Part shown: positions 36,826 through 50,723 of the stretch, piece by piece | Layout: every line of letters begins with the position of its first letter | Position numbering within the stretch: the first letter of the stretch is position 1 | Source: Euhalothece natronophila Z-M001 | Lineage (GTDB): Bacteria; Cyanobacteriota; Cyanobacteriia; Cyanobacteriales; Rubidibacteraceae | DNA length: 64,000 nt | Reading direction: 5' to 3' | Assembly (NCBI RefSeq): GCF_007904085.1 | Contig: NZ_CP042326.1 | Coordinates: 744,001 to 808,000 of the forward strand | Notes under the pieces: model-generated | What the model was told of the DNA's origin: nothing | Seen by the model: the letters and a program-made list of their open reading frames with translations, nothing else | Databases searched by the model: none | Program-made: the position numbers and the translations under genes

Positions 36826-37320
36826 TTAAAATTGAAAATACAGAAACTCATTTGGCTGATCGCGGAAAATCAAAGCTGTGATCAAGAGAACGGCAGTAAA
36901 TCCAGCATAAATAAAATTCGGTCGCCATCTATACCAAGCTTTTTTTTGACTGCTTAGATGATTATAAATGTCAAGAGTAACTACTTCATGACTCATAATC
37001 TGGTAAAGATTTGGTAAAAATAGAGTTATGCCAAGTAATGACAATAATAAGACTACCGATTCATTGCCACCGTAGTTATTCAAAGTGCCAAATTGAACTC
37101 CTAAACGACTCAGAAAATTAAGTTGCTCAATATACAATTCAGGTAAAATAAAGCCATTACCACCAAACATTCCGATAATAATATTGTAAGAACCGCCTAA
37201 AGTATTTGCTCTGAAAACCACCCAAGAAACAATTATTGCCAATAAAGTTAGCAAACGAGCCAAGCAATAAAAATAGATAGAATCAAGGACAAAATTACGC
37301 TTTTCTATAAAATTAATCGG
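36826..37320 (-). pseudogene. MBOAT O-acyltransferase C-terminal fragment
   Basis: The open frame from TTG 37263 gives 145 residues with four hydrophobic segments, including IIVSWVVFRANTLGGSYNII, the conserved WVxFRA region near the end of AlgI/DltB-type acyltransferases. Homologous sequence continues upstream to about 37320 (INFIEKRNFVLDSIYFYCL). The catalytic His domain and the other 300 residues are missing. Its 5' end runs into the tail of the truncated glycosyltransferase. Confidence 0.65.
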
Positions 37321-37907
37321 ATATTTTTCTTTGGGATCTTTAATTTAGTAGCATAGGCTTCTTGAACTTCACTACTAATTGCAATAAAACGATCACCTAA
37401 AAATGTTGGATAGTATTGGTTAATGAAAGTAGCAATTCTAACTCCAAAGCGTTTTCTTGAAGGTTCAATAGCAGCGGTTGAGACATAGGGTACGTTATAA
37501 CAGAGTTTCATCATCTGTGCATAGAGAGTTAAAGAAAGGGAATTAATGTTAATAACATCAGGCTTAAATTCACGAACAACTGTATTGAGTTTTAGTAAAG
37601 CCTGAAAAGTACGAAATAGTTTTGCTTTGCCACTGATTCGCCAATCAGGAAAAGGAACAAAAAAATGCTGAATATTTTGAGACTCAAGCCAGCGGGGTCC
37701 ACGAGTAAATCTTCCTACATCATCTTGATCTTCCATAGAAGAAACAATGGCAACCTGCCAACCGTGGTCTTGTAATTTTTTTGTTAAAGTGACGAGGACT
37801 TGAAGAATCCCTTCATTACCCCATAGAAAGCCTACAACCAGAAGTACACGAGGTACTTTAGAAGAAGTCTTTTCAGAAATAACCTTTCGATTGATAAATG
37901 TCTTCAT
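37305..37907 (-). pseudogene. GT4 glycosyltransferase, N-terminal half only
   Basis: A 200-residue frame with the GT-B acceptor domain (VLLVVGFLWGNEGILQVLVT; FKPDVININSLSLTLYAQMM) that ends KIPKKNIRLIL just where the NGVD loop and donor domain should begin. The donor domain and EX7E motif are absent, so it cannot bind nucleotide sugar. The stop results from a junction with acyltransferase sequence. Confidence 0.75.
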
Positions 37908-40763: not shown

Positions 40764-42049
40764 CTCACGGGGTGACAATCGTGTTGTAATCGCCTCAAGC
40801 GCTGACGTAGATAGCCTTTTATAATAAACAGATCAGGCTGCGCGATCACGCTAACTGTGCGATCGCAGAAACCAAAATGAACTTAAAAAATGCTACCAAA
40901 ATTATATCGCAATCACCTTGCTAATCGACTCACTCGTGCCCAATTATTAAGCCTAGAAATCTGGGTATGGCTGTTACAAGTTCATAAAAATGTGAAAATC
41001 GAAAAACTAGCTGCGTACTATCCTTTACCGATTAAGTATGAAAGTCGTCGCCGTCGTCTTCAAAGATTTCTAGTGCTTCCTTCCCTGTCCATGGCCCTAA
41101 TTTGGTTTCCAATCATTAAAGAAATTATTAAACTCATTCACCCAAGTAATCAACCTCTTTACTTAGCTTTAGACAGAACGCAGTGGCAAGATAAAAACTT
41201 GTTTGTTGTCGCCTTCATTCATCAGAAACGAGCTCTTCCCATTTATTGGCAATTTTTATCAAAGAAAGGAGCCAGTAATTTAAAAGAACAAAAAGCTTTA
41301 CTCAAACCGATTTTGAAACTTCTGAGAGGTTATCGATTAATCATTTTAGGAGACCGTGAATTTCATAGCATCGAGCTGGCTAAATGGTTACGGAGAGAGA
41401 AAGTGGGCTTTGTTCTGCGTCAGAAAAAAGACCGAAACATTCAAGTCAAAGGAAAAGATTGTCAATCTCTTAGTTGCTTCGACTTTCAACCAGGAGACTC
41501 TCATTTCTTTCCTAATATAAAAGTGGGTAAAAACGGATTCGGTCAATTTTCTGTTGCCGTTAAATGGAAAAAGAAATACCGAGGAAGTGTCGAAAAAGAG
41601 CCTTGGTATCTTCTGACTAATCTTCCCGATCTCGACTCGGCAATCAAAGCTTATCAAAAGCGTATGGGAATCGAAGCCATGTTTAAGGATTGTAAGATCG
41701 GAGGTTATAATTTAGAAGGCTCTAAGGCTTCAGTAAAAAGACTAAGTAATTTGGTTTTGTTGTGCGCGATCGCGTACACGGTCTCCAGTTTAAAGGGGCA
41801 ATCCATTCGGTTCAAAGGTCAACAAGAATATCTTGGTCGTCTGAGAACAGTGAAGCAAAAAATGACGAAAAATAGTAATTTCTTAATCGGCTTATATGGT
41901 CAAACTTGGATCATCACTCAGATTTTTGTCAAAGATTGGGTAGAAGAATTGATGAGTCTTAATCGCAATAAGTTTCCCTTTTATCAGAAAGGGTTAAGAG
42001 CTATGGAACTTATACAGCAAGGGGCTTAAGCCAGTCGTCACCCCTTGAG
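40764..42049 (+). mobile_element. IS4-family insertion sequence (1286 bp)
   Basis: Ends are CTCACGGGGTGACAATCG (left) and the inverse of CTCAAGGGGTGACGACTG (right), an imperfect 18-bp terminal inverted repeat. The flanks are identical 9-bp copies of CTCAAGGTT at 40755-40763 and 42050-42058, a perfect target duplication, so the insertion is recent. It carries one transposase gene. It interrupts a GT2 gene of the EPS cluster. Confidence 0.88.
40890..42029 (+). CDS. IS4-family transposase
   Basis: A 379-residue DDE transposase. First Asp in LYLALDRTQWQDKN, second in LIILGDREFHS, and the Y-2-R-3-E-6-K signature YQKRMGIEAMFKDCK with the catalytic Glu. Intact from end to end, so probably active. 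A HIP1 site lies inside (near 41764), which suggests long residence in HIP1-rich genomes. It is the only gene of the element at 40764-42049 and is oriented opposite to the interrupted gene. Confidence 0.93.
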   Translation: MLPKLYRNHLANRLTRAQLLSLEIWVWLLQVHKNVKIEKLAAYYPLPIKYESRRRRLQRFLVLPSLSMALIWFPIIKEIIKLIHPSNQPLYLALDRTQWQDKNLFVVAFIHQKRALPIYWQFLSKKGASNLKEQKALLKPILKLLRGYRLIILGDREFHSIELAKWLRREKVGFVLRQKKDRNIQVKGKDCQSLSCFDFQPGDSHFFPNIKVGKNGFGQFSVAVKWKKKYRGSVEKEPWYLLTNLPDLDSAIKAYQKRMGIEAMFKDCKIGGYNLEGSKASVKRLSNLVLLCAIAYTVSSLKGQSIRFKGQQEYLGRLRTVKQKMTKNSNFLIGLYGQTWIITQIFVKDWVEELMSLNRNKFPFYQKGLRAMELIQQGA

Positions 42050-43039: not shown

Positions 43040-44156
43040 TTAATCCGTGCGCTAAATAGTTAACATGGGAAAGTGAAGTACGGCAGTTTTCTATATGCAA
43101 TTAAAAGACGCTCGGAGTTTACCCCCTCAAGCTCAACAAGCAATCCGTAAAAGGGCGGTCATGGCAGTGATTGAGAACAAACGTTCTCAAGGAGAAGTGG
43201 CCCAAGAGTTTGGAGTTACTCGTACAGCAGTTAATCAGTGGGTGCAACGTTACCGTCGTGGGGGTGAGACAGCTCTCAAAGCTTGTAAACAAGGTCGTCG
43301 TGAGCATCCTACCTTGGCGCGATCGCAGGTAACGACAATTACTCGTCTCATTCGGGATTACAGCCCAGAACAACTACAACTGCCATTTACTCTCTGGACT
43401 CGACAAGCCGTATCTCAGCTCATTGAACAATGTTGGGGAATTACTCTTTCTCAAACGACGATTGGTCGTTATCTGCGTCGTTGGGGACTGTCTCCACAAA
43501 AGCCTGCCAAATGCGCTCGTGAGCAATGTCCTCACCAGCTTCAGCATTGGTTAACTCATGAATATCCAGCGATTCACAAGCGAGCACAGCAGGAAGGAGC
43601 TGAGATTCATTGGGGTGATGAAATGGGATTGCGTTCGGACCATCAAGCAGGGACTTGTTGGTCTGAGGTAGGGAAAACGCCAATTGTAGAAGGAACTGGG
43701 CAACGTTTCAGTTGCAACTTAATTTCCGCCCTGACCAATCGAGGAACCCTACGCTTTCAAGTATTTCAAGGGGGATTTAATAGCGATGTCTTTTTGGAAT
43801 TTTTACGCCGATTAATTCGCTCCAGGGAAAACAAAGTTTTTTTGATTGTAGATCGCCACCCAGTACATCGCTCCCGTAAAGTTCAACAATGGGTAGCTCA
43901 ACATCAGGATGAATTGGAACTGTTTTATCTTCCCCCCTACAGCCCAGAACGAAATCCCGATGAATTTCTCAATCAGGACATTAAAAGCAATGCTATGAGA
44001 CGACAAAGACCCCGTAATCGTAATGAACTCATGAAAAGGGTTCGCTCTTATTTATACAGTCTTCAGAAATGTCCCGAACGTATTAGTCGTTATTTTTGGG
44101 CTCAGCCAGTTCAATATGCTGGCCTTTAGGTGTTAACTATTTCCTGCACGGATTAA
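43040..44156 (+). mobile_element. IS630-family insertion sequence (1117 bp)
   Basis: Terminal inverted repeats of about 27 bp: TTAATCCGTGC then AAATAGTTAACA on the left; the right end is the inverse with three central mismatches. TA dinucleotides at 43038-43039 and 44157-44158 are the expected target duplication of the IS630-Tc1-mariner group. It carries one intact transposase gene and interrupts the 3' end of the HAD-type gene. Confidence 0.88.
43095..44129 (+). CDS. IS630-family transposase
   Basis: A 344-residue transposase with an N-terminal helix-turn-helix (RSQGEVAQEFGVTRTAVNQW) and a DDE domain: HWGDEMGLRSDH (first Asp), FLIVDRHPVHRS (second Asp) and YSPERNPDEFLNQDIK (Glu). All in one frame without the frameshift that many IS630 copies use, so a single product is expected. 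A HIP1 site occurs near 43318. Confidence 0.93.
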   Translation: MQLKDARSLPPQAQQAIRKRAVMAVIENKRSQGEVAQEFGVTRTAVNQWVQRYRRGGETALKACKQGRREHPTLARSQVTTITRLIRDYSPEQLQLPFTLWTRQAVSQLIEQCWGITLSQTTIGRYLRRWGLSPQKPAKCAREQCPHQLQHWLTHEYPAIHKRAQQEGAEIHWGDEMGLRSDHQAGTCWSEVGKTPIVEGTGQRFSCNLISALTNRGTLRFQVFQGGFNSDVFLEFLRRLIRSRENKVFLIVDRHPVHRSRKVQQWVAQHQDELELFYLPPYSPERNPDEFLNQDIKSNAMRRQRPRNRNELMKRVRSYLYSLQKCPERISRYFWAQPVQYAGL

Positions 44157-45530
44157 TAACTGAAAGAGCAAGAAAAAGAAAAATTTGATTAAAGGATTAG
44201 AAATTGCCATTGATCCTTCTATCCAATAAATATCTGAACTATTTTTTCTAGATTGATTAAAAGAGTTCATGGAACTAATATAGTTAGGGAAATCTTTTAT
44301 TTTTAGGGGGCGGGCGATTTTTTGAGAATTTTCTATTTCTAAGGCAATAATTGCTTTAATTTCTGGAATATTAGGCTGGGACAAAAAAGTAATAGTATTG
44401 ACAACTGCACATCTTTTTATCTCCTCAATTTCTTTGTTTAATAGATGTGTTTCTCCTAACTCCTTTGCATAAGCAATAACGATATTATGTAAAGATTCAA
44501 CTAAATTTTCTTCCTTTCCTTTGTAATCACTCATTACAGTAGGATAATTAGCCATCATCAACAATTTTTCAATTAAATGCCAATTGCGAAAAATAATTTC
44601 AGTTTTAGAAGGCTCAGGCTTAATAACAACATCTTGTTCTAAGAAAGCTTTATACTCTCCTGCTTCTAAAGTCGTTATATAATTTCGTAGAATCCCAAAA
44701 TAATAACCTGTTACATTTTGGTTTAAGATAGTTTTAAGTGACTTTTGCAAGTTAAGAGTCCAACCTAAGTCAACTAACGCCCACTCAGATGAAGAAAGAA
44801 GCCCCTCTTGGGTAAAATAGTCAAGGATAATATCACGCGCAGCTTTAGCTTTCTCTAAGATAATAGACTTTACGTTTGGATGCTGAAGAACTTGCCAAAG
44901 TGTTTCTAAGTTTTCTGATGAAATTGGTTGTTTCCAAAAGCTAGTAGTCAAATTATGTTGACTTAAAACCGATTCAATTTCTAATGGATCTATATTTAGT
45001 TTGTTAAAAACATCAGTTAAAGGATTAGATTCTCCTTGAATAAATACCCAGTCAAGAGTTTCTTGACTTACTTCTGTTATCGAAGCTAGAAATAAGGTCT
45101 GACGTGAAGTGTCGAGATAGCAACACTCTGGCACTGGTCGAGACTTAGCAAGTATATGAGCTATCTTGAGAAAAAGTTGTCCCTCAGAAGCAACAAAATA
45201 TAATCGTTGAATCCCTCTTTTGTAAGCATCTTCTAATACCCAGGCCACATAGCTAGTTAATAAGGGAGAAATTACATTAGTTGCTAAACTTGCTAAATGT
45301 TGAGAAAGTGTAACCTCATCAGTATATTCTAGCCTGACTGATCTGCTAATTCCTGCAATTTGTGAATGGACGAGGGGCGGTTTTAAGGATTTAGTTATGA
45401 TACTTGTTTCATAACGGTTTAATTGAATATCTTTGCAATAAGTAGCTTTAATTCCTAATTGCCGAGGCATCATAACATCACTGTAAATATTGTCACCATA
45501 ATGATGAAGCTGATTAGGTTTTATCCCCTC
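44157..45530 (-). pseudogene. HAD-type protein (COG5610-like), central and C-terminal part
   Basis: This frame continues the HAD gene after the A8 tract: EGIKPNQLHHYGDNIYSDVM holds HAD motif III/IV (GDN..SD). Then comes a large C-terminal domain with LYFVASEGQLFLKIAHIL, YLDTSRQTLFLASI and WALVDLGWTLNLQKSL. The same three landmarks occur in the stand-alone paralogs at 46039-49559. The frame from ATG 45473 is open for 446 codons but its last residues (LIRAGNS) come from IS630. Without both lesions the gene would run from 46005 to 42912. Confidence 0.75.
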
Positions 45531-46005
45531 TTTTTTTTAGTACATATTTAAATAAACTACCAGTTCCTTTTACTAAGCCAATATCACTGGATATATAAAG
45601 AGAATCTGCTAATTCTGCTATTTCAAATTTTAAAAGAATGTCTCTAATTACACTATAAGGCAAATACATATCGGAAATAAAAATTATTTTTTCTCCTTGC
45701 TGGCGCAGACGTTTAATTAAAGTTTGTGTTGCTTTGATCGGGCGTAAGTGTTTGACTTCTAGTAAAATTTCTTTTTCAGCAGAAGAGAGTTGTTTTAATG
45801 TATTATCCTTTTCATAGATTTGGTGAATTGAAATATCTTCTCGTTTAGACTCTGACCTCGTGCGATGTTCTGCATTAATTCTGGCTTTAACTAGATTGGA
45901 GGATTGTTCTAAACCAGAATCTTGACTTAACAAATAGAACAAATCAATTGGATGAGCAAAGGTTCGAGTAATACAAGTATCAAAAATATCAAAAGAGTAA
46001 ATCAT
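45514..46005 (-). pseudogene. HAD-superfamily hydrolase domain, 5' part of frameshifted gene
   Basis: 163 codons with HAD motif I MIYSFDIFDTCITR (DxFDT) and motif II KIIFISDMYLP, ending prematurely at KKRGDKT. A run of eight A on the coding strand (45531-45538) shifts the frame; seven A would give VLKKEGIKPNQLHHYGDN and continue into the downstream frame. Substrate unknown; COG5610 proteins are found in polysaccharide loci. The product from this frame alone would lack HAD motif III/IV. Confidence 0.78.
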
Positions 46006-46038: not shown

Positions 46039-47124
46039 TTAAAAGGGTTTCCAGATCTTCAAAAGTTGAATTAAACGAGCAATAGGAAGAGGAAATTCTA
46101 ATGTTGTTTGCCCTGAATTCCAATGAGCTTGTCTAACTCTATTTATTTTTGTTTTAAGTGAGCTTTTAGGAGCATTTACCTGAAAATTTAGAAACGAACC
46201 ATTTTCAGTACAATCCATTATAGAAACTTCATTTTTTTTAGGAAATTTTATTAAACGGAATAATTTTTTATAGGCTTTATCAGCTTGACGCTCTATTTGA
46301 TCTAAATTACATTGGCTTTGTTCTTTAAAGTATTCTACAATTCCTGAAAAGAATAGATCATTTGATTTGGAAGTGGGAGCAATTACGGATTCTAAAGCGA
46401 TACCAGCATTAGGCATTATAACTCCATCATTATCTTGATATCCCTCAGTGCTAGGGAACTCGATCTCTAAAATATTTTCTATTAATAGATGATAAGCAAA
46501 AATGCATGAACGTGGATATTTATTATGTTTTAATTCATCTGTGCTAATCCCTGAAATATTTAAGTTAGGAATATCTGGTTTATGTCTAGAGGATATTGCA
46601 AAGTATAATCCTACCCATTCATATTGTGAAAAACTTCTCATTAACATTCCTTGGGTATTTCCGAACCATCCAGTATCGACTAAAATAATTTTTTCTTTTC
46701 CCTCTAAAAGATTTCCTAAATACTTTTTAAAGTTCATATGCTGTTTCAAAAAATAATTATTTTCTAAATTATTTTCTCTATATATTTTTTTAATATATTC
46801 TGGATTTCTTAAAATACTATAATCAAAAACATAATCAAAATCAGTATATAAGCAAGATTTAGTACAAGCTAATCTAGAAATATAAAGATCCTTTTCAGTT
46901 AGGTTACATTTAAGATTATTTAATTTGCGGTATAATTGATACAAGTATCTTAACCGTAAGCCTCCACGAGCCATATACAATATAATATAACTATCATTAT
47001 AATTATTAGTTATTTCTTTATGAAGAAGGTGACAGAATTCATAAAAAATTGGACCTAGTATGTTTTTTGAAAATAAAAATCTTTCTTGGATTATTTTACT
47101 TTCTAATTTATTTAATGTTTTCAT
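46039..47124 (-). CDS. Stand-alone COG5610 C-terminal-like domain protein, paralog 1
   Basis: 361 residues from MKTLNKLESKI (the frame extends five codons further to 47139). It is not a known enzyme. Visible landmarks: IILYMARGGLRLRYLYQLYR, EKDLYISRLACTKSCLY, KIILVDTGWFGNTQGMLMRS, HNKYPRSC and SGQTTLEFPLPIARL at the C-terminus. The first three align with the C-terminal domain of the HAD-type protein just downstream. No membrane segment. Very AT-rich with no HIP1. First of three tandem paralogs by position, last in transcription order; 28 bp after paralog 2's neighbour-leader region. Role unknown. Confidence 0.7.
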   Translation of the reverse strand: MKTLNKLESKIIQERFLFSKNILGPIFYEFCHLLHKEITNNYNDSYIILYMARGGLRLRYLYQLYRKLNNLKCNLTEKDLYISRLACTKSCLYTDFDYVFDYSILRNPEYIKKIYRENNLENNYFLKQHMNFKKYLGNLLEGKEKIILVDTGWFGNTQGMLMRSFSQYEWVGLYFAISSRHKPDIPNLNISGISTDELKHNKYPRSCIFAYHLLIENILEIEFPSTEGYQDNDGVIMPNAGIALESVIAPTSKSNDLFFSGIVEYFKEQSQCNLDQIERQADKAYKKLFRLIKFPKKNEVSIMDCTENGSFLNFQVNAPKSSLKTKINRVRQAHWNSGQTTLEFPLPIARLIQLLKIWKPF

Positions 47125-47166
47125 ATTTAATTTGAGCATAATTTATAAAAAATATAATTCAATTAC

Positions 47167-48360
47167 TTAAAAGTGTTCCCAGATTTTCAAAAGTTGAATT
47201 AAACGAGCAATAGGAAGAGGAAATTCTAATGTTGTTTGTCCTGATCTCCAAGGTGATGTTTTTACTAAAGACCTTTTAGCTTGGAAAGATTTTAACTCTT
47301 TGCTCTTTTTAAGAACCTCAGGTGAGTCACTGGTACTACAATCCATCATAGACAACTCACTTTTTCTAGGAAATTTTATTAAACGAAATAAATGCTTATA
47401 GGCTTCGTTAGCTTTATTATGTATTTTATTTGAATCAAATTGCTTTTGTTCCTTAAAGTATTCTATAATTCCTAAAAAATATGGATTCTTATCATTTAAG
47501 TTAGGAGCAATTGTAGATTCTGAAGCTATACCATTAATAGGCATTACTTTTCCCTCGTTATATTGATACTCTTCAGTGCTAGGAAAATCGATCTTTAAAA
47601 CAGCCTCAATTAATAGAGAATGAGAAAAAATACATGAACGTGGATATTTATTATGTCTAATTTCATCTGAGCTAACTCCTAGAATATGCTTTAAGTGAGC
47701 ATTATTAGAATTATTTTTTGGTCTAGATTTTGCATAAAAATATAATCCTATCCATTCATATTGCGAGAAGCTTCTCATTAGCATACCTTGAGTGGTTCCG
47801 CTCCCTCCACTATCGACTAAAATAATTTTTTGTTTTCCTTCTAAAAGGTCATCTAAATATTTTTTGAGCCTTATATTATGTTCCAAAAAATAGCTTTTTA
47901 ACCAGTAACTTTCCTGATATCTATTTTTTAATTTTTCAATATAAAGTTCCCCTTGCTTACAGCCATCTCGAAAATTTTGACTTAAATCTTGCGCTTTTAT
48001 TATCGATTCAAAAATTTCAGTAAAACTACTGGAATGTTCTGTTGTCATAATAAAATCAAAAACATAATCAAAATCAGTATATAAGCAGGATTTAGCACAA
48101 CAGAATCTAGAAATATAAAAATCCTTTTCAACAAGTTTGCATTTTAAGTTATTTGATTGGCGGTATAATTGATATAAATACCTTAATCTAAGTCCATCGC
48201 GAGCCATATATAATATGATATCAGTATCATGATTGTAATTATTGTTTACTTCTTCATGCAGAAGATGACAAAATTCATAAAAAATCGGCCCTAGTATATT
48301 TTTTGAAAATGAAATTCTTTCCTGCATTATTCTACTGTCTAATTCATATAATGTTTTCAT
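47167..48360 (-). CDS. Stand-alone COG5610 C-terminal-like domain protein, paralog 2
   Basis: 397 residues, longest of the three because of an insertion of about 30 residues around positions 110-145 (TTEHSSSFTEIFESIIKAQD). It shares DIILYMARDGLRLRYLYQLY, VEKDFYISRF, IILVDSGGSGTTQGMLMRSF and the C-terminal RSGQTTLEFPLPIARLIQLL with its neighbours. In the VD(T/S)GW motif Trp is replaced by Gly. This start (MKTLYELDS) is the conserved one, as the upstream ATG of the other two is ATA here. Confidence 0.7.
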   Translation of the reverse strand: MKTLYELDSRIMQERISFSKNILGPIFYEFCHLLHEEVNNNYNHDTDIILYMARDGLRLRYLYQLYRQSNNLKCKLVEKDFYISRFCCAKSCLYTDFDYVFDFIMTTEHSSSFTEIFESIIKAQDLSQNFRDGCKQGELYIEKLKNRYQESYWLKSYFLEHNIRLKKYLDDLLEGKQKIILVDSGGSGTTQGMLMRSFSQYEWIGLYFYAKSRPKNNSNNAHLKHILGVSSDEIRHNKYPRSCIFSHSLLIEAVLKIDFPSTEEYQYNEGKVMPINGIASESTIAPNLNDKNPYFLGIIEYFKEQKQFDSNKIHNKANEAYKHLFRLIKFPRKSELSMMDCSTSDSPEVLKKSKELKSFQAKRSLVKTSPWRSGQTTLEFPLPIARLIQLLKIWEHF

Positions 48361-48470
48361 TTTTAAGTTGAGTATAATTAATATTTATTGGGTTGTTTTT
48401 TAAAACTAATTTTAACTATTAAAAAAGTAAATTATGCTTTATTATCCTTTGAAATTCTATTAATTTTTAC

Positions 48471-49559
48471 TTAAAAGACTTCCCAGATCTTCAAAAGGTG
48501 AATAAAATGAGCAATAGGAAGAGGAAATTCTAATGTTGTTTGTCCTGACTTCCAATGAGCTTGTCTAATTCTATTTATTTTTGTTTGAAGTGAGCCTTCA
48601 AGATCATCTGCCTGAAGGATTAGAGGCGAATCATTACTAGTACAATCCATCATAGAAACTTCTTTTCTTTTAGGAAATTTTATTAAACGGAATAATTTTT
48701 TGTAGGCTTTATCTGCTTGACACTCTATTTGATCTAAATTACATTGGCTTTGTTCTTTAAAGTATTCTACAATTCCTGAAAAAAATAGGTCATTTGATTT
48801 GGAAGTGGGAGCAATTACGGATTCTGAAGCTATACCAGTATTAGGCATTATAATTCCATCATCATCTTGATATCCCTCAGCGCTAGGGAAATCGATGTTT
48901 AAAATATCTTCTATTAACAGAAAATAAGAAGAAATACATGAACGTGGATATTTATTATGTTTTAGGTCATCTGTGCTAATACCTAAAATATTTAAATCAG
49001 GAATATCTGGTTTATGTCTAGAGATTTTTCCAAAGTATAATCCTATCCATTGATATTGTGAGAAACTTCTCATTAACATTATTTGAATATTTCCTGACCA
49101 TCCAGTATCAACTAAAATAATTTTTTCTTTTTTCTCTACAAGATTATCCAAGTATTTTTTAAGTTTAATATAGTGTTCTAAATAGTAATTTTTTACCAAT
49201 TTAGTTTCTCTATATATTGTCTTGATATATTCTGGATTTGTTTTGATAGCATAATCGAAAACATAATCAAAATCACTATAGAAGCAAGATTTAGTACAAG
49301 CTAATCTAGAAATATAAAAATCCTTTTCAACAAGGCTGCATTTTAAGTTATTTAATTGGCGGTATAATTGATATAAATATCTTAATCTAAGTCCATCGCG
49401 AGCCATATATAATATGATATCAGTATCATGATTGTAATTATTGTGTATTTCTTTATGAAGAAGATGACAAAATTCATAAAATATCGGACCTAGGATATTT
49501 TTTGCAAAAGATGTCTTTTCCTGAGTTATTTTACTGTCTAATTGATTTAATGTTTTCAT
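48471..49559 (-). CDS. Stand-alone COG5610 C-terminal-like domain protein, paralog 3
   Basis: About 362 residues from MKTLNQLDSKI (frame open to 49577). The N-terminal 100 residues are closest to paralog 2 (NHDTDIILYMARDGLRLRYL, VEKDFYISR), whereas residues about 230-310 are almost identical to paralog 1 (SNDLFFSGIVEYFKEQSQCN). The gene is therefore a mosaic, as expected from gene conversion. It is the first of the three in transcription, 27 bp after a GT4 gene. Confidence 0.7.
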   Translation of the reverse strand: MKTLNQLDSKITQEKTSFAKNILGPIFYEFCHLLHKEIHNNYNHDTDIILYMARDGLRLRYLYQLYRQLNNLKCSLVEKDFYISRLACTKSCFYSDFDYVFDYAIKTNPEYIKTIYRETKLVKNYYLEHYIKLKKYLDNLVEKKEKIILVDTGWSGNIQIMLMRSFSQYQWIGLYFGKISRHKPDIPDLNILGISTDDLKHNKYPRSCISSYFLLIEDILNIDFPSAEGYQDDDGIIMPNTGIASESVIAPTSKSNDLFFSGIVEYFKEQSQCNLDQIECQADKAYKKLFRLIKFPKRKEVSMMDCTSNDSPLILQADDLEGSLQTKINRIRQAHWKSGQTTLEFPLPIAHFIHLLKIWEVF

Positions 49560-49586
49560 ATTATTAAACTTGAGCATAATAACTAT

Positions 49587-50723
49587 TTATTGGGTTGTCT
49601 TTTCAAATAAATCTAAATAATGCTGTGCCATAGTCTTCCAGCTATATTGTTCGGCTATGGTTCTAGCAGCTTTTCCCATTCGAGTCCTAAGATTAAGATT
49701 GTTACTTAGGGTAGTGAGGGCTTCGGTTAAAGCCGAAATGTTTTCCGAGTCTGATAAAACTAAACCGCAATCAGAGGTAACTAAATCAGCTGCCCCCACA
49801 GATTTGATTGTGATCACCGGTAAGCCACTTGCCATAGCCTCTAACACAACGAGTCCAAAGGGTTCATAGCGAGAAGGGAAGACAAAAAAGTTAGTAGCGC
49901 GCATAATTTGAGCAATATCTTGGCGATATCCAAGAAAATGCACTCGTTTTTCTAATCCCAATTCTGTTGCTAATTTAGGATAAGGACTGTCTTGGGTGTC
50001 GCCTACCACAGCCAGATGTAATTCCTCAGTAGGGATAAGGGCATGTAGGACCATTTCAAGATTTTTGCGAGAGGTGCGAATATCACCTACAAATAAAGCC
50101 AAAGGAACCTTTTCTGGAAGTTGCCAAACATGACGTGGTTCTGTTCCAGGTGAAAATTCATCAAGATCAACGCCGTTGGGAATGACTTTAATTTTTTCAG
50201 GGGGAAGCACGCTCAATTCTTCTTTTACTTTGTGTGATACAGCAATCACTGACTTGGCTCGGTGAAAGGCTTGTTTTTCCCAAAAAGCATTTAATTTTGT
50301 ATATAACCATTGGTATAAACCGTAAAAGTTACGATGCTGTTTAGCAGTGTGATAGGGAGATCGCGCCCAAGCACTATGGACAAAGTGAACAGCATTCACA
50401 TCGCCAGGAAACTGAGTAATTGCCCCATTCACCTTAATTAGATCAAATTTTTGATGATGTTGACGCAACCAACGGGTACTTTGCCAAGAAAAAATGAAAT
50501 TGCGAAGCAATTCAGTTGGGAAATTGCTAACAGAAATTTTGACCCAATTAACTTCACTGTGCTGACTTAGAAAAGAATCAACAACACTAGCTAAAATAGT
50601 GACCTGATAACCACGGGCAATTGCTTCTTGGACAATTTCATAATTTACTCTTCCTTGGCCATCTCCTTTAATTACTTTATGAGTAACAATGCAGATATGG
50701 TTAGAACTATATTTTTTCATCAA
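49587..50723 (-). CDS. Family 4 (GT-B) glycosyltransferase
   Basis: A 378-residue GT-B enzyme: CIVTHKVIKGDGQGRVNYEI at the start, VIPNGVDLDEFSPG donor loop and EPFGLVVLEAMASGLPVI (EX7E). Retaining transfer in EPS assembly is inferred. It precedes the three paralogs in transcription. A decayed copy of its 3' end is at 42784. Confidence 0.9.
   Translation of the reverse strand: MMKKYSSNHICIVTHKVIKGDGQGRVNYEIVQEAIARGYQVTILASVVDSFLSQHSEVNWVKISVSNFPTELLRNFIFSWQSTRWLRQHHQKFDLIKVNGAITQFPGDVNAVHFVHSAWARSPYHTAKQHRNFYGLYQWLYTKLNAFWEKQAFHRAKSVIAVSHKVKEELSVLPPEKIKVIPNGVDLDEFSPGTEPRHVWQLPEKVPLALFVGDIRTSRKNLEMVLHALIPTEELHLAVVGDTQDSPYPKLATELGLEKRVHFLGYRQDIAQIMRATNFFVFPSRYEPFGLVVLEAMASGLPVITIKSVGAADLVTSDCGLVLSDSENISALTEALTTLSNNLNLRTRMGKAARTIAEQYSWKTMAQHYLDLFEKTTQ

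Follow-up and report, generated by a model that had tools for sequence, protein, structure and literature searches.

Three tandem genes of Euhalothece natronophila Z-M001, named here A, B, and C, most likely encode stand-alone glycan phosphoribosyltransferases (gPRTs) of a divergent subfamily. The predicted structures of A and B place them with the gPRT of PRPP-dependent ribofuranosyltransferases, a domain whose function has already been described; the activity of the three proteins is inferred. The genes probably encode three transferases that add ribofuranose-5-phosphate to acceptors in the exopolysaccharide (EPS), from which the phosphate would be removed in trans.

Arrangement and relatedness of the three genes

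The window, which is the whole 64,000-nucleotide stretch of DNA that was analysed, contains the three genes as tandem open frames on the minus strand, encoding 366, 397, and 368 residues (C, B, and A, respectively, in the list of open reading frames). The motifs by which the initial annotation had grouped them as three stand-alone copies are found in the sequences, and its placement of the copies in an EPS locus is borne out by nearby genes for glycosyltransferases, a Wzz-type protein, an ABC transporter, sugar transferases, and a pyruvyl transferase. The same locus also holds IS genes and seemingly truncated genes.

49587..50723, minus strand: GT4 glycosyltransferase, directly upstream of A
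48471..49577, minus strand: gene A, stand-alone gPRT-type protein of 368 residues, or 362 residues from the second in-frame ATG at 49559
48362..48415, minus strand: 54-nucleotide repeat 5' of B, 80% identical to 49564-49617
47167..48360, minus strand: gene B, stand-alone gPRT-type protein of 397 residues with a full-length helical insert
46039..47139, minus strand: gene C, stand-alone gPRT-type protein of 366 residues, 78% identical to A

Proteins A and C share 78% of their residues, A and B 64%, and B and C 62%, with dN/dS values among the three genes of 0.40–0.46. Duplication by misassembly was rejected, because the proteins differ by 22–38% and B has a longer insert. The three form one clade (SH-aLRT 100) within a group of 49 sequences in a tree of the domain; as this was a quick reconstruction with long branches, only its deepest division and the grouping of A, B, and C were relied on. 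A, B, and C have recombined with one another and have a mosaic structure. The 54-nucleotide repeat is likely the footprint of a tandem duplication; its partner at 49564-49617 overlaps the last part of the GT4 gene and the start of A.

The closest relatives of A, B, and C among the sequences compared (L072 and L013) are only 24–28% identical to them. The comparison covered cyanobacterial relatives, 41 genome loci that a single pattern scan had picked out, and sets of plasmids, phages, and viral contigs, and because the search was limited to these sets, a closer donor may exist. The phages contained no match to the domain. Among viral contigs, A gave five candidates, none of which held up, and the profile A3 gave one out of five, a contig equal to L013 in length and domain scores.

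Structural and sequence similarity to gPRTs

Scans of A, B, and C against Pfam and NCBIfam returned nothing over the cut-off, and the annotated records examined label the domain as "hydrolase", "HAD family hydrolase", or "hypothetical protein". The initial annotation knew of no described function for it, a view that the predicted structures overturn. The model of B (pLDDT 87.5, pTM 0.90) matches 7shg_B with a Z-score of 24.8 and an rmsd of 3.4 over 311 aligned residues, and Bcs3 (8a0c_A) with a Z-score of 22.8. The corresponding Z-scores for the model of A (pLDDT 86.4) are 22.6 for 7shg_B and 21.1 for Bcs3 (8a0c_B). Foldseek matches for B and A have E-values of 7.1e-8 and 1.2e-7, and sequence identity within the fold matches is 12–19%. 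The next-ranked matches, the nucleotide-type phosphoribosyltransferases HPRT and PyrR, which are typified by a compact type I PRTase fold with a vicinal acidic pair, have Z-scores of about 7.5, which is no better than those of common arrangements. The models of A and B have the PRTase-like core with five parallel strands and the helical bundles of the gPRT fold.

Direct searches of PDB sequences with A and with the profiles A3 and A4 found neither 7shg, nor Bcs3, nor any other gPRT. Homology by sequence to a characterised gPRT is reached through a bridge from A4, a profile of 42 paralog-type rows, to A7, a profile of eight rows from the family of the neighbouring HAD-type gene H, and from A7 to 7shg. 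A profile-profile comparison of A4 with A7 gives a probability of 98.0% and an E-value of 1.5e-13 over 368 columns, and pairs three motifs with the C-terminal half of the HAD gene in the order reported in the initial annotation; this E-value rules out a chance line-up. Profile A7 matches 7shg with an E-value of 5.5e-32 and Bcs3 with 2.2e-29, and the sequence of H alone gives 6.8e-5. When A alone was used in tblastn searches of plasmids, its matches were HAD proteins of full length, in their C-terminal part (Methylomagnum, E-value 7e-13; R. etli, 7e-11).

The structure 7shg is that of the dual-domain ribofuranosyltransferase of Thermobacillus composti, reportedly the subject of Kelly et al. 2022 in Nat Chem Biol. 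It has the same fold as B over the 311 aligned residues, and the S-R and D-x-G motifs are common to both. By contrast, 7shg combines PRP and gPRT in a single chain, whereas A, B, and C consist of the gPRT only, are 17–19% identical to it in the fold match, and have ARDG or ARGG in place of its SREG. The three proteins have no HAD domain and therefore fall outside the dual-domain PRP-gPRT proteins; H would belong to them, but is frame-shifted in this assembly.

Three papers describe the biochemistry of PRPP-dependent ribofuranosyltransferases (PMC10299916, PMC12096443, PMC11127046). Bcs3, the Haemophilus influenzae type b polymerase (PDB 8a0c/8a0m), includes the transferase CriT, which resembles A, B, and C in fold and at most PRPP-site positions, and has the PRP CrpP beside it. 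Unlike the stand-alone proteins, Bcs3 is one multi-enzyme chain of CroT, CrpP, CriT, and SH3b; its segments 2-631 and 632-1162 are each inactive alone and active when combined (PMC10299916). The C-terminal domain of Campylobacter jejuni Cj1432 (PMC12096443) and KrkA of E. coli K13 (PMC12887879) are likewise described as transferring ribose-5-phosphate from PRPP ahead of a HAD phosphatase. They are multi-domain chains, unlike A, B, and C, and are likened to them by description only. No paper on stand-alone gPRTs was found in the literature searched, which did not include the text of Kelly et al. 2022, and the term COG5610 was not met there.

The PRPP site

Cifuente et al. (PMC10299916) place S707-R708, E818, T825, and E874 of Bcs3 around PRPP. 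E874 is the proposed base; D680 holds the ribose, and its replacement with alanine lowered activity. The equivalent positions in A, B, and C are as follows.

49392..49403, minus strand: A loop 1, A-R-D-G, equivalent to Bcs3 S678-R679-D680
49305..49310, minus strand: A loop 2, S-R, equivalent to Bcs3 S707-R708
49086..49109, minus strand: A loop 3, D-x6-I, equivalent to Bcs3 E818...T825
48193..48204, minus strand: B loop 1, A-R-D-G
47791..47814, minus strand: B loop 3, D183-x6-T190, equivalent to Bcs3 E818...T825
47605..47607, minus strand: B Glu252, set on Bcs3 E874 by motif and by eye; Glu in 42/42 rows
46960..46971, minus strand: C loop 1, A-R-G-G, with Gly at the position of Bcs3 D680

All 42 rows agree at the S-R, D, G, and E positions, including the S-R that corresponds to Bcs3 S707-R708. 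The position of E818 is occupied by aspartate in every row, as it is in 7shg, with unchanged spacing to the position of T825, which is threonine in 39 of the 42 rows and isoleucine in A. Loop 1 has the acid in A and B, whereas C and 40 of the 42 rows have glycine in a column that was partly preselected, as the scan pattern allowed G or D; CriT differs from the subfamily in having Asp680 and Glu818 where mostly Gly and Asp occur. The invariance of A53, R54, and G56 was set aside as evidence because the pattern covered that stretch. Subfamily copies that are fused to a PRP have the same loop 1 glycine. The helical insert, which contacts the phosphatase in Bcs3, is shorter by about 32 residues in A and C.

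Linkage to PRP phosphatases

A, B, and C lie upstream of the HAD-type gene H on the same strand. The HAD and C-terminal domains that the initial annotation assigned to H are present, but not in one gene: a frameshift splits H into two frames in this assembly. By contrast, its relatives L073 and L074, which are 41% identical to H, are single open genes.

45514..46005, minus strand: HAD phosphatase (PRP) part of H, ending at the frameshift before HAD motif IV
45531..45538, minus strand: eight-base A run (coding strand), with the frameshift at it or next to it
44133..45473, minus strand: gPRT part of H (C-terminal domain)

The HAD half of H is of the kind of the partner phosphatase (PRP) that takes off the 5'-phosphate in this enzyme family. 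The gPRT of H has lost the loop 1 arginine (ASEG), whereas the motif reads [SAT]R[DE]G in the seven other sequences of A7. The single PRP-type HAD found in a search of the genome is that of H; the other HAD match (E-value 8.6e-11) was rejected as a second PRP, as it belongs to the REG-2-like family (TIGR02252, 242.7 bits against a cut-off of 155.2). Local expansion of the same domain was proposed in the initial annotation and holds, but not as an expansion from H: the tree puts the domain of H in a group of eight rows, separate from the 49-row group of A, B, and C. No PRP from the lineage of A, B, and C was found in these searches.

The domain had also been thought to be otherwise fused to HAD, which does not apply generally. 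It is fused in 30 of the 41 loci, and the other 11 carry it as a gene of its own close to a HAD gene. A PRP-type HAD is present in all 41 loci, either fused or nearby. Stand-alone gPRTs occur in Pseudomonadota, Actinomycetota, and Lentisphaerota. The HAD + gPRT pairs of Methylobacterium, Blastococcus, Geodermatophilus, Salinisphaera, and others contain stand-alone gPRTs of the same subfamily, each with one gPRT downstream of its HAD gene, whereas the window has three gPRTs upstream of a HAD from another lineage. Two cyanobacterial genomes (G265 and G049) have two gPRTs beside one PRP, the single PRP match in each.

Proposed function and alternatives

The analysis establishes the homology of A, B, and C, their fold, local duplication, and mosaic structure, and the linkage of the domain to PRP genes elsewhere; the donor PRPP, the acceptors, the linkage formed, and the phosphate step in trans are putative. 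The reading of A, B, and C as EPS ribofuranose-5-phosphate transferases is favoured by the fold matches, the sequence bridge through A7, the retained PRPP-site residues, the linkage to PRP-type HADs, the joint activity of the split Bcs3 segments, the two genomes with two gPRTs and one PRP, the dN/dS values, and the EPS context. Against it count the lack of a direct sequence match to 7shg or Bcs3, the low identity in the fold matches, the loop 1 glycine of C and most rows, the loop 3 isoleucine of A, the frameshift in the PRP, and the shortened insert of A and C. PRPP would most likely bind in a pocket made up of loops 1 (A-R-D/G-G), 2 (S-R), and 3 (D-x-G-x-x-G), and the invariant glutamate would activate the acceptor hydroxyl. 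Ribofuranose-5-phosphate would then be moved with inversion, giving a beta linkage, onto a sugar of the growing exopolysaccharide. A separate HAD phosphatase may subsequently take off the 5'-phosphate in trans; the candidates are the adjoining PRP, the only one of its type found in the genome, or else another phosphatase. The copies stem from a gene low in GC and probably acquired, which was duplicated locally, and they have recombined with one another. It is possible, though doubtful, that one HAD phosphatase serves as a hub for several acceptor-specific stand-alone gPRTs that duplicate and swap PRPP-site segments by gene conversion, and that here, with the phosphatase broken in the assembly, the EPS may keep ribofuranose-5-phosphate.

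It is unlikely that the transferases act without any PRP, with H dead and ribofuranose-5-phosphate left on the EPS as a charged decoration. This would agree with the frameshift that cuts the only PRP found in the genome before motif IV, the different family of the other HAD match, the missing loop 1 arginine of H, the position of A, B, and C upstream of a PRP that is not from their lineage, and the shortened phosphatase-contact bundle of A and C. However, runs such as the eight A bases at the frameshift are common sites of sequencing error or slippage, all 41 related loci have a PRP-type HAD close by, and the step could fall to a generic phosphatase, for example the REG-2-like protein. That the copies are non-catalytic, as paralogs that recombination maintains, that are decaying, or that act as a scaffold or regulator of EPS assembly, is quite unlikely. 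The absence of the loop 1 Asp from C and the loop 3 Thr from A, the merely moderate dN/dS, and the IS and apparently truncated genes of the locus would fit this reading; against it, none of the three frames is interrupted, no row departs from the S-R, D, G, and E residues, and the loop 1 glycine is the rule in the subfamily, including PRP-fused copies.

Transfer of another 5-phosphopentosyl or phosphosugar group by the same fold is very unlikely. The ribose-holding aspartate of Bcs3 is replaced by glycine in most rows, and all characterised gPRTs of known structure are distant from the subfamily, but most phosphate- and pyrophosphate-binding positions are retained and the partner is a PRP-type phosphatase. 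It is highly improbable that the domain is an uncharacterised one that modifies or regulates glycan assembly, as the initial annotation had it. The lack of a Pfam or NCBIfam model at the cut-off is consistent with that proposal, but fold and linkage identify the domain, and the regulatory role found no support, with most PRPP-site positions retained.

With A, B, and C assigned as gPRTs, a domain that no Pfam or NCBIfam model detects over the cut-off now has a likely function. A subfamily mostly without the loop 1 acid is a test of what portion of the PRPP site is required. Stand-alone gPRTs and genomes with two gPRTs and one PRP show that the two are separable modules. It can now be tested whether one phosphatase is able to serve several transferases and whether phosphoribose can be left on a surface glycan.

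Gene array in the exopolysaccharide locus

The window includes three tandem stand-alone genes of the glycan phosphoribosyltransferase (gPRT) type, which lie between a gene for a GT4 glycosyltransferase and a HAD-type dual-domain gene, in this order:

48471-49577, minus strand: gene A, intact
47167-48360, minus strand: gene B, intact
46039-47139, minus strand: gene C, intact
45514-46005 and 44133-45473, minus strand: neighbouring HAD-type gene

Because the array is surrounded by further glycosyltransferases, a pyruvyl transferase, a Wzz-type protein, an ABC transporter, and sugar transferases, the locus is assigned to exopolysaccharides (EPS), as in the initial annotation. Scans of A, B, and C against Pfam and NCBIfam gave no matches above the cut-off. 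Two transposase genes are located inside the locus (40890-42029, DDE_Tnp_1; 43095-44129, DDE_3/HTH), the second of which directly adjoins the broken dual-domain gene. At 36826-37907, the N-terminal part of a GT4 gene is followed by another ORF, in what looks like a rearranged, truncated pair; judged by eye, this ORF resembles the end of an MBOAT acyltransferase. The ORF at 59800-60465 matches the bacterial sugar transferase model over a short stretch only (profile positions 82-113 of 179). The genome (3.52 Mb, five contigs) contains eight matches to the phycobilisome family, all above the cut-off (E = 3.1e-63 to 1.0e-9), which identify it as cyanobacterial; among 14 control genomes, the family was matched in Synechococcus elongatus only.

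Domain and fold of the stand-alone proteins

The profile of 42 paralog-type sequences (A4) aligns with that of the neighbour's family (A7, eight sequences) over 368 columns with a probability of 98.0% and an E-value of 1.5e-13, pairing the motifs ARDG with SRDG, ISR with GSR, and VDSG with VDLG. A tblastn search with A matched 14 of 72,556 plasmid records; five of the 14 were inspected, and in the two whose genes are annotated in full length, the match lies in the C-terminal part of a "hydrolase" (655 residues) and a "HAD family hydrolase" (660 residues). Judged by these alignments, A, B, and C carry the domain of the HAD gene, in agreement with the initial proposal that they share its C-terminal part.

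AlphaFold models of B (pLDDT 87.5, pTM 0.90, 42 sequences) and A (pLDDT 86.4, pTM 0.88, 36 sequences) show the fold of gPRT enzymes. The closest PDB structure to the model of B is 7shg_B from Thermobacillus composti, a polysaccharide ribofuranosyltransferase (Z 24.8, rmsd 3.4, 311 aligned residues, 7shg_B residues 260-597), followed by Bcs3, the polymerase of Haemophilus influenzae type b (8a0c_A, Z 22.8, residues 637-1026), and then by HPRT and PyrR with Z of at most 7.5; Foldseek gave an E-value of 7.1e-8. The corresponding Z scores for A are 22.6, 21.1, and then 7.5, and the Foldseek E-value for A is 1.2e-7. Sequence searches with the neighbour's family detect 7shg (E = 5.5e-32) and Bcs3 (E = 2.2e-29); PDB sequence searches with A alone and with the paralog-type profiles A3 and A4 found neither. 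The counterpart of the domain in Bcs3 is CriT (PMC10299916).

Predicted PRPP site

Cifuente et al. docked PRPP against S678-R679-D680, S707-R708-R712, E818, and T825 of Bcs3, and proposed E874 as the base (PMC10299916). The 42-sequence alignment shows no variation at S-R (S84 and R85 in B), D183, G185, G188, or E252, and at T190 (B numbering) 39 of the 42 have threonine. The spacing from D183 to T190 equals that from E818 to T825, and E252 was placed on E874 by eye, from its motif and its position in the helix that follows the last core strand. R712 is without a partner at equal spacing; a basic residue (35 Arg, 7 Lys) is located one position further on. The position of D680 is glycine in 40 of 42 sequences, with aspartate in A and B only, and A has isoleucine at the position of T825; these substitutions count against the reading as a PRPP site. 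A53, R54, and G56 are also invariant, which proves nothing because the scan that fetched the loci required this stretch. Loops 2 and 3 are 66 residues apart in A and C, 98 in B, and 93-108 in the 39 other members; the helical bundle between these loops in Bcs3 touches the phosphatase (PMC10299916).

Origin of the array

A tree of 57 domains unites A, B, and C in a clade (SH-aLRT 100) inside a group of 49 and places the neighbour in the other group of eight, together with domains from the retrieved loci L073 and L074. Because the method was quick and several branches are long, conclusions are limited to the deep split and the A/B/C clade. The clade agrees with the local expansion that had been suggested, and the separate placement of the neighbour argues against an origin of the copies from its domain. 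The GC content of A, B, and C is 27-29%, compared with 42-43% in four genes elsewhere in the window, taken as non-EPS; however, most EPS-locus genes are also low (31-42% among those measured), so low GC alone is no proof of separate arrival. The copies are mosaics. The stretch with loop 1 (codons 41-80) has a dS of 0.05 between A and B against 1.9 between A and C, and the order is reversed in codons 281-400, where dS is 0.04-0.15 between A and C and 0.32-1.6 between A and B; this pattern indicates gene conversion. Ahead of B lies a 54-base repeat with 80% identity to the sequence where the GT4 gene and A meet, and overall dN/dS between copies is 0.40-0.46.

Phosphatase of the neighbouring gene

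The HAD part of the neighbour is closest to the partner phosphatases (PRPs) of L073 and L074 (46-50%), that is, to its own lineage. It ends before HAD motif IV owing to a frameshift at a run of eight A (45531-45538). Loop 1 of the neighbour's gPRT (44133-45473) is ASEG, with the arginine lost, where the other seven sequences have [SAT]R[DE]G; this is a further sign of decay besides the frameshift. The dual-domain gene is either decaying or has an open frame in the cell. The PRP profile has three matches at E ≤1 in the genome: the two pieces of the neighbour and a HAD protein at C1:1127194 (E = 8.6e-11 over 76 positions). The latter was rejected as a second PRP, as it is REG-2-like (TIGR02252, 242.7 bits, cut-off 155.2).

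Distribution of stand-alone and fused copies

A pattern scan of the genome collection yielded 126 candidate stretches, 41 of which encode a relative. All 41 loci contain a PRP-type HAD, detected with a five-sequence model that included the window's own; it is fused in 30 and a separate gene in 11 (L013, L015, L016, L017, L018, L019, L020, L021, L022, L037, and L045). The two genes overlap by four bases in five of the 11 and are 0.7-0.9 kb apart in three; in L019, L020, and L045, the open frame of the domain overlaps the HAD gene in another frame, and its true start is unsure. On a plasmid of Methylorubrum extorquens AM1 (L010, outside the 41), the two are also separate, with an ORF between them. 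The initial description of the domain as otherwise fused to a HAD hydrolase is therefore not right. The survey of neighbourhoods suggested with it did recover stand-alone copies, in these 11 loci. The 41 loci, with up to 6 kb per side, contain no second strong copy of the A/B/C subfamily. At the edge of L044, which already has a dual-domain gene, a second HAD-type ORF (1-1377) has a weak domain match (E = 0.001). The Salinisphaera contig in which HAD and gPRT are separate genes (L054/L013) is seemingly also filed as an IMG/VR viral contig, with equal length and domain scores.

The A/B/C subfamily is rare in cyanobacteria. A4 matches four of 291 genomes of the order, namely this one, G275 (E = 3.6e-82), and, weakly, G214 (1.2e-13) and G265 (5.2e-6), the weak matches being other gPRTs; in an overlapping sample of 386 genomes of the phylum it matches this one only. 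The narrower profile A2 matched none of five other genomes of the genus. The neighbour's subfamily is present in 15 of the 291. In G275, the HAD gene stands by itself and precedes a gPRT that is fused to a GT2 glycosyltransferase and has TRAG in loop 1 (L072, 3918-7013). In G265, a stand-alone gPRT of 450 residues immediately precedes an intact dual-domain ribofuranosyltransferase (L073, 6498-9927); by eye, glycosyltransferase-like and ABC-transporter-like genes surround it. G049 encodes HAD, gPRT, and gPRT in one open frame of 1223 residues (L071, 4665-8336), a single phosphatase with two transferases behind it. In each of six cyanobacterial genomes checked, four of which also contributed sequences to the alignment used, the PRP search gave a single match at E ≤1e-10; therefore, in two genomes with open genes, one PRP stands beside two gPRTs.

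Proposed function

Most likely, A, B, and C would take ribofuranose-5-phosphate from PRPP and attach it to EPS acceptors, with a HAD phosphatase acting in trans. The fold and the homology are shown; we infer the donor, the acceptor, the linkage, and the removal of the phosphate. The model is that of split Bcs3, the halves of which function in trans (PMC10299916). The gPRT family is already known, and the novelty is its tandem stand-alone arrangement without a PRP of the same lineage.
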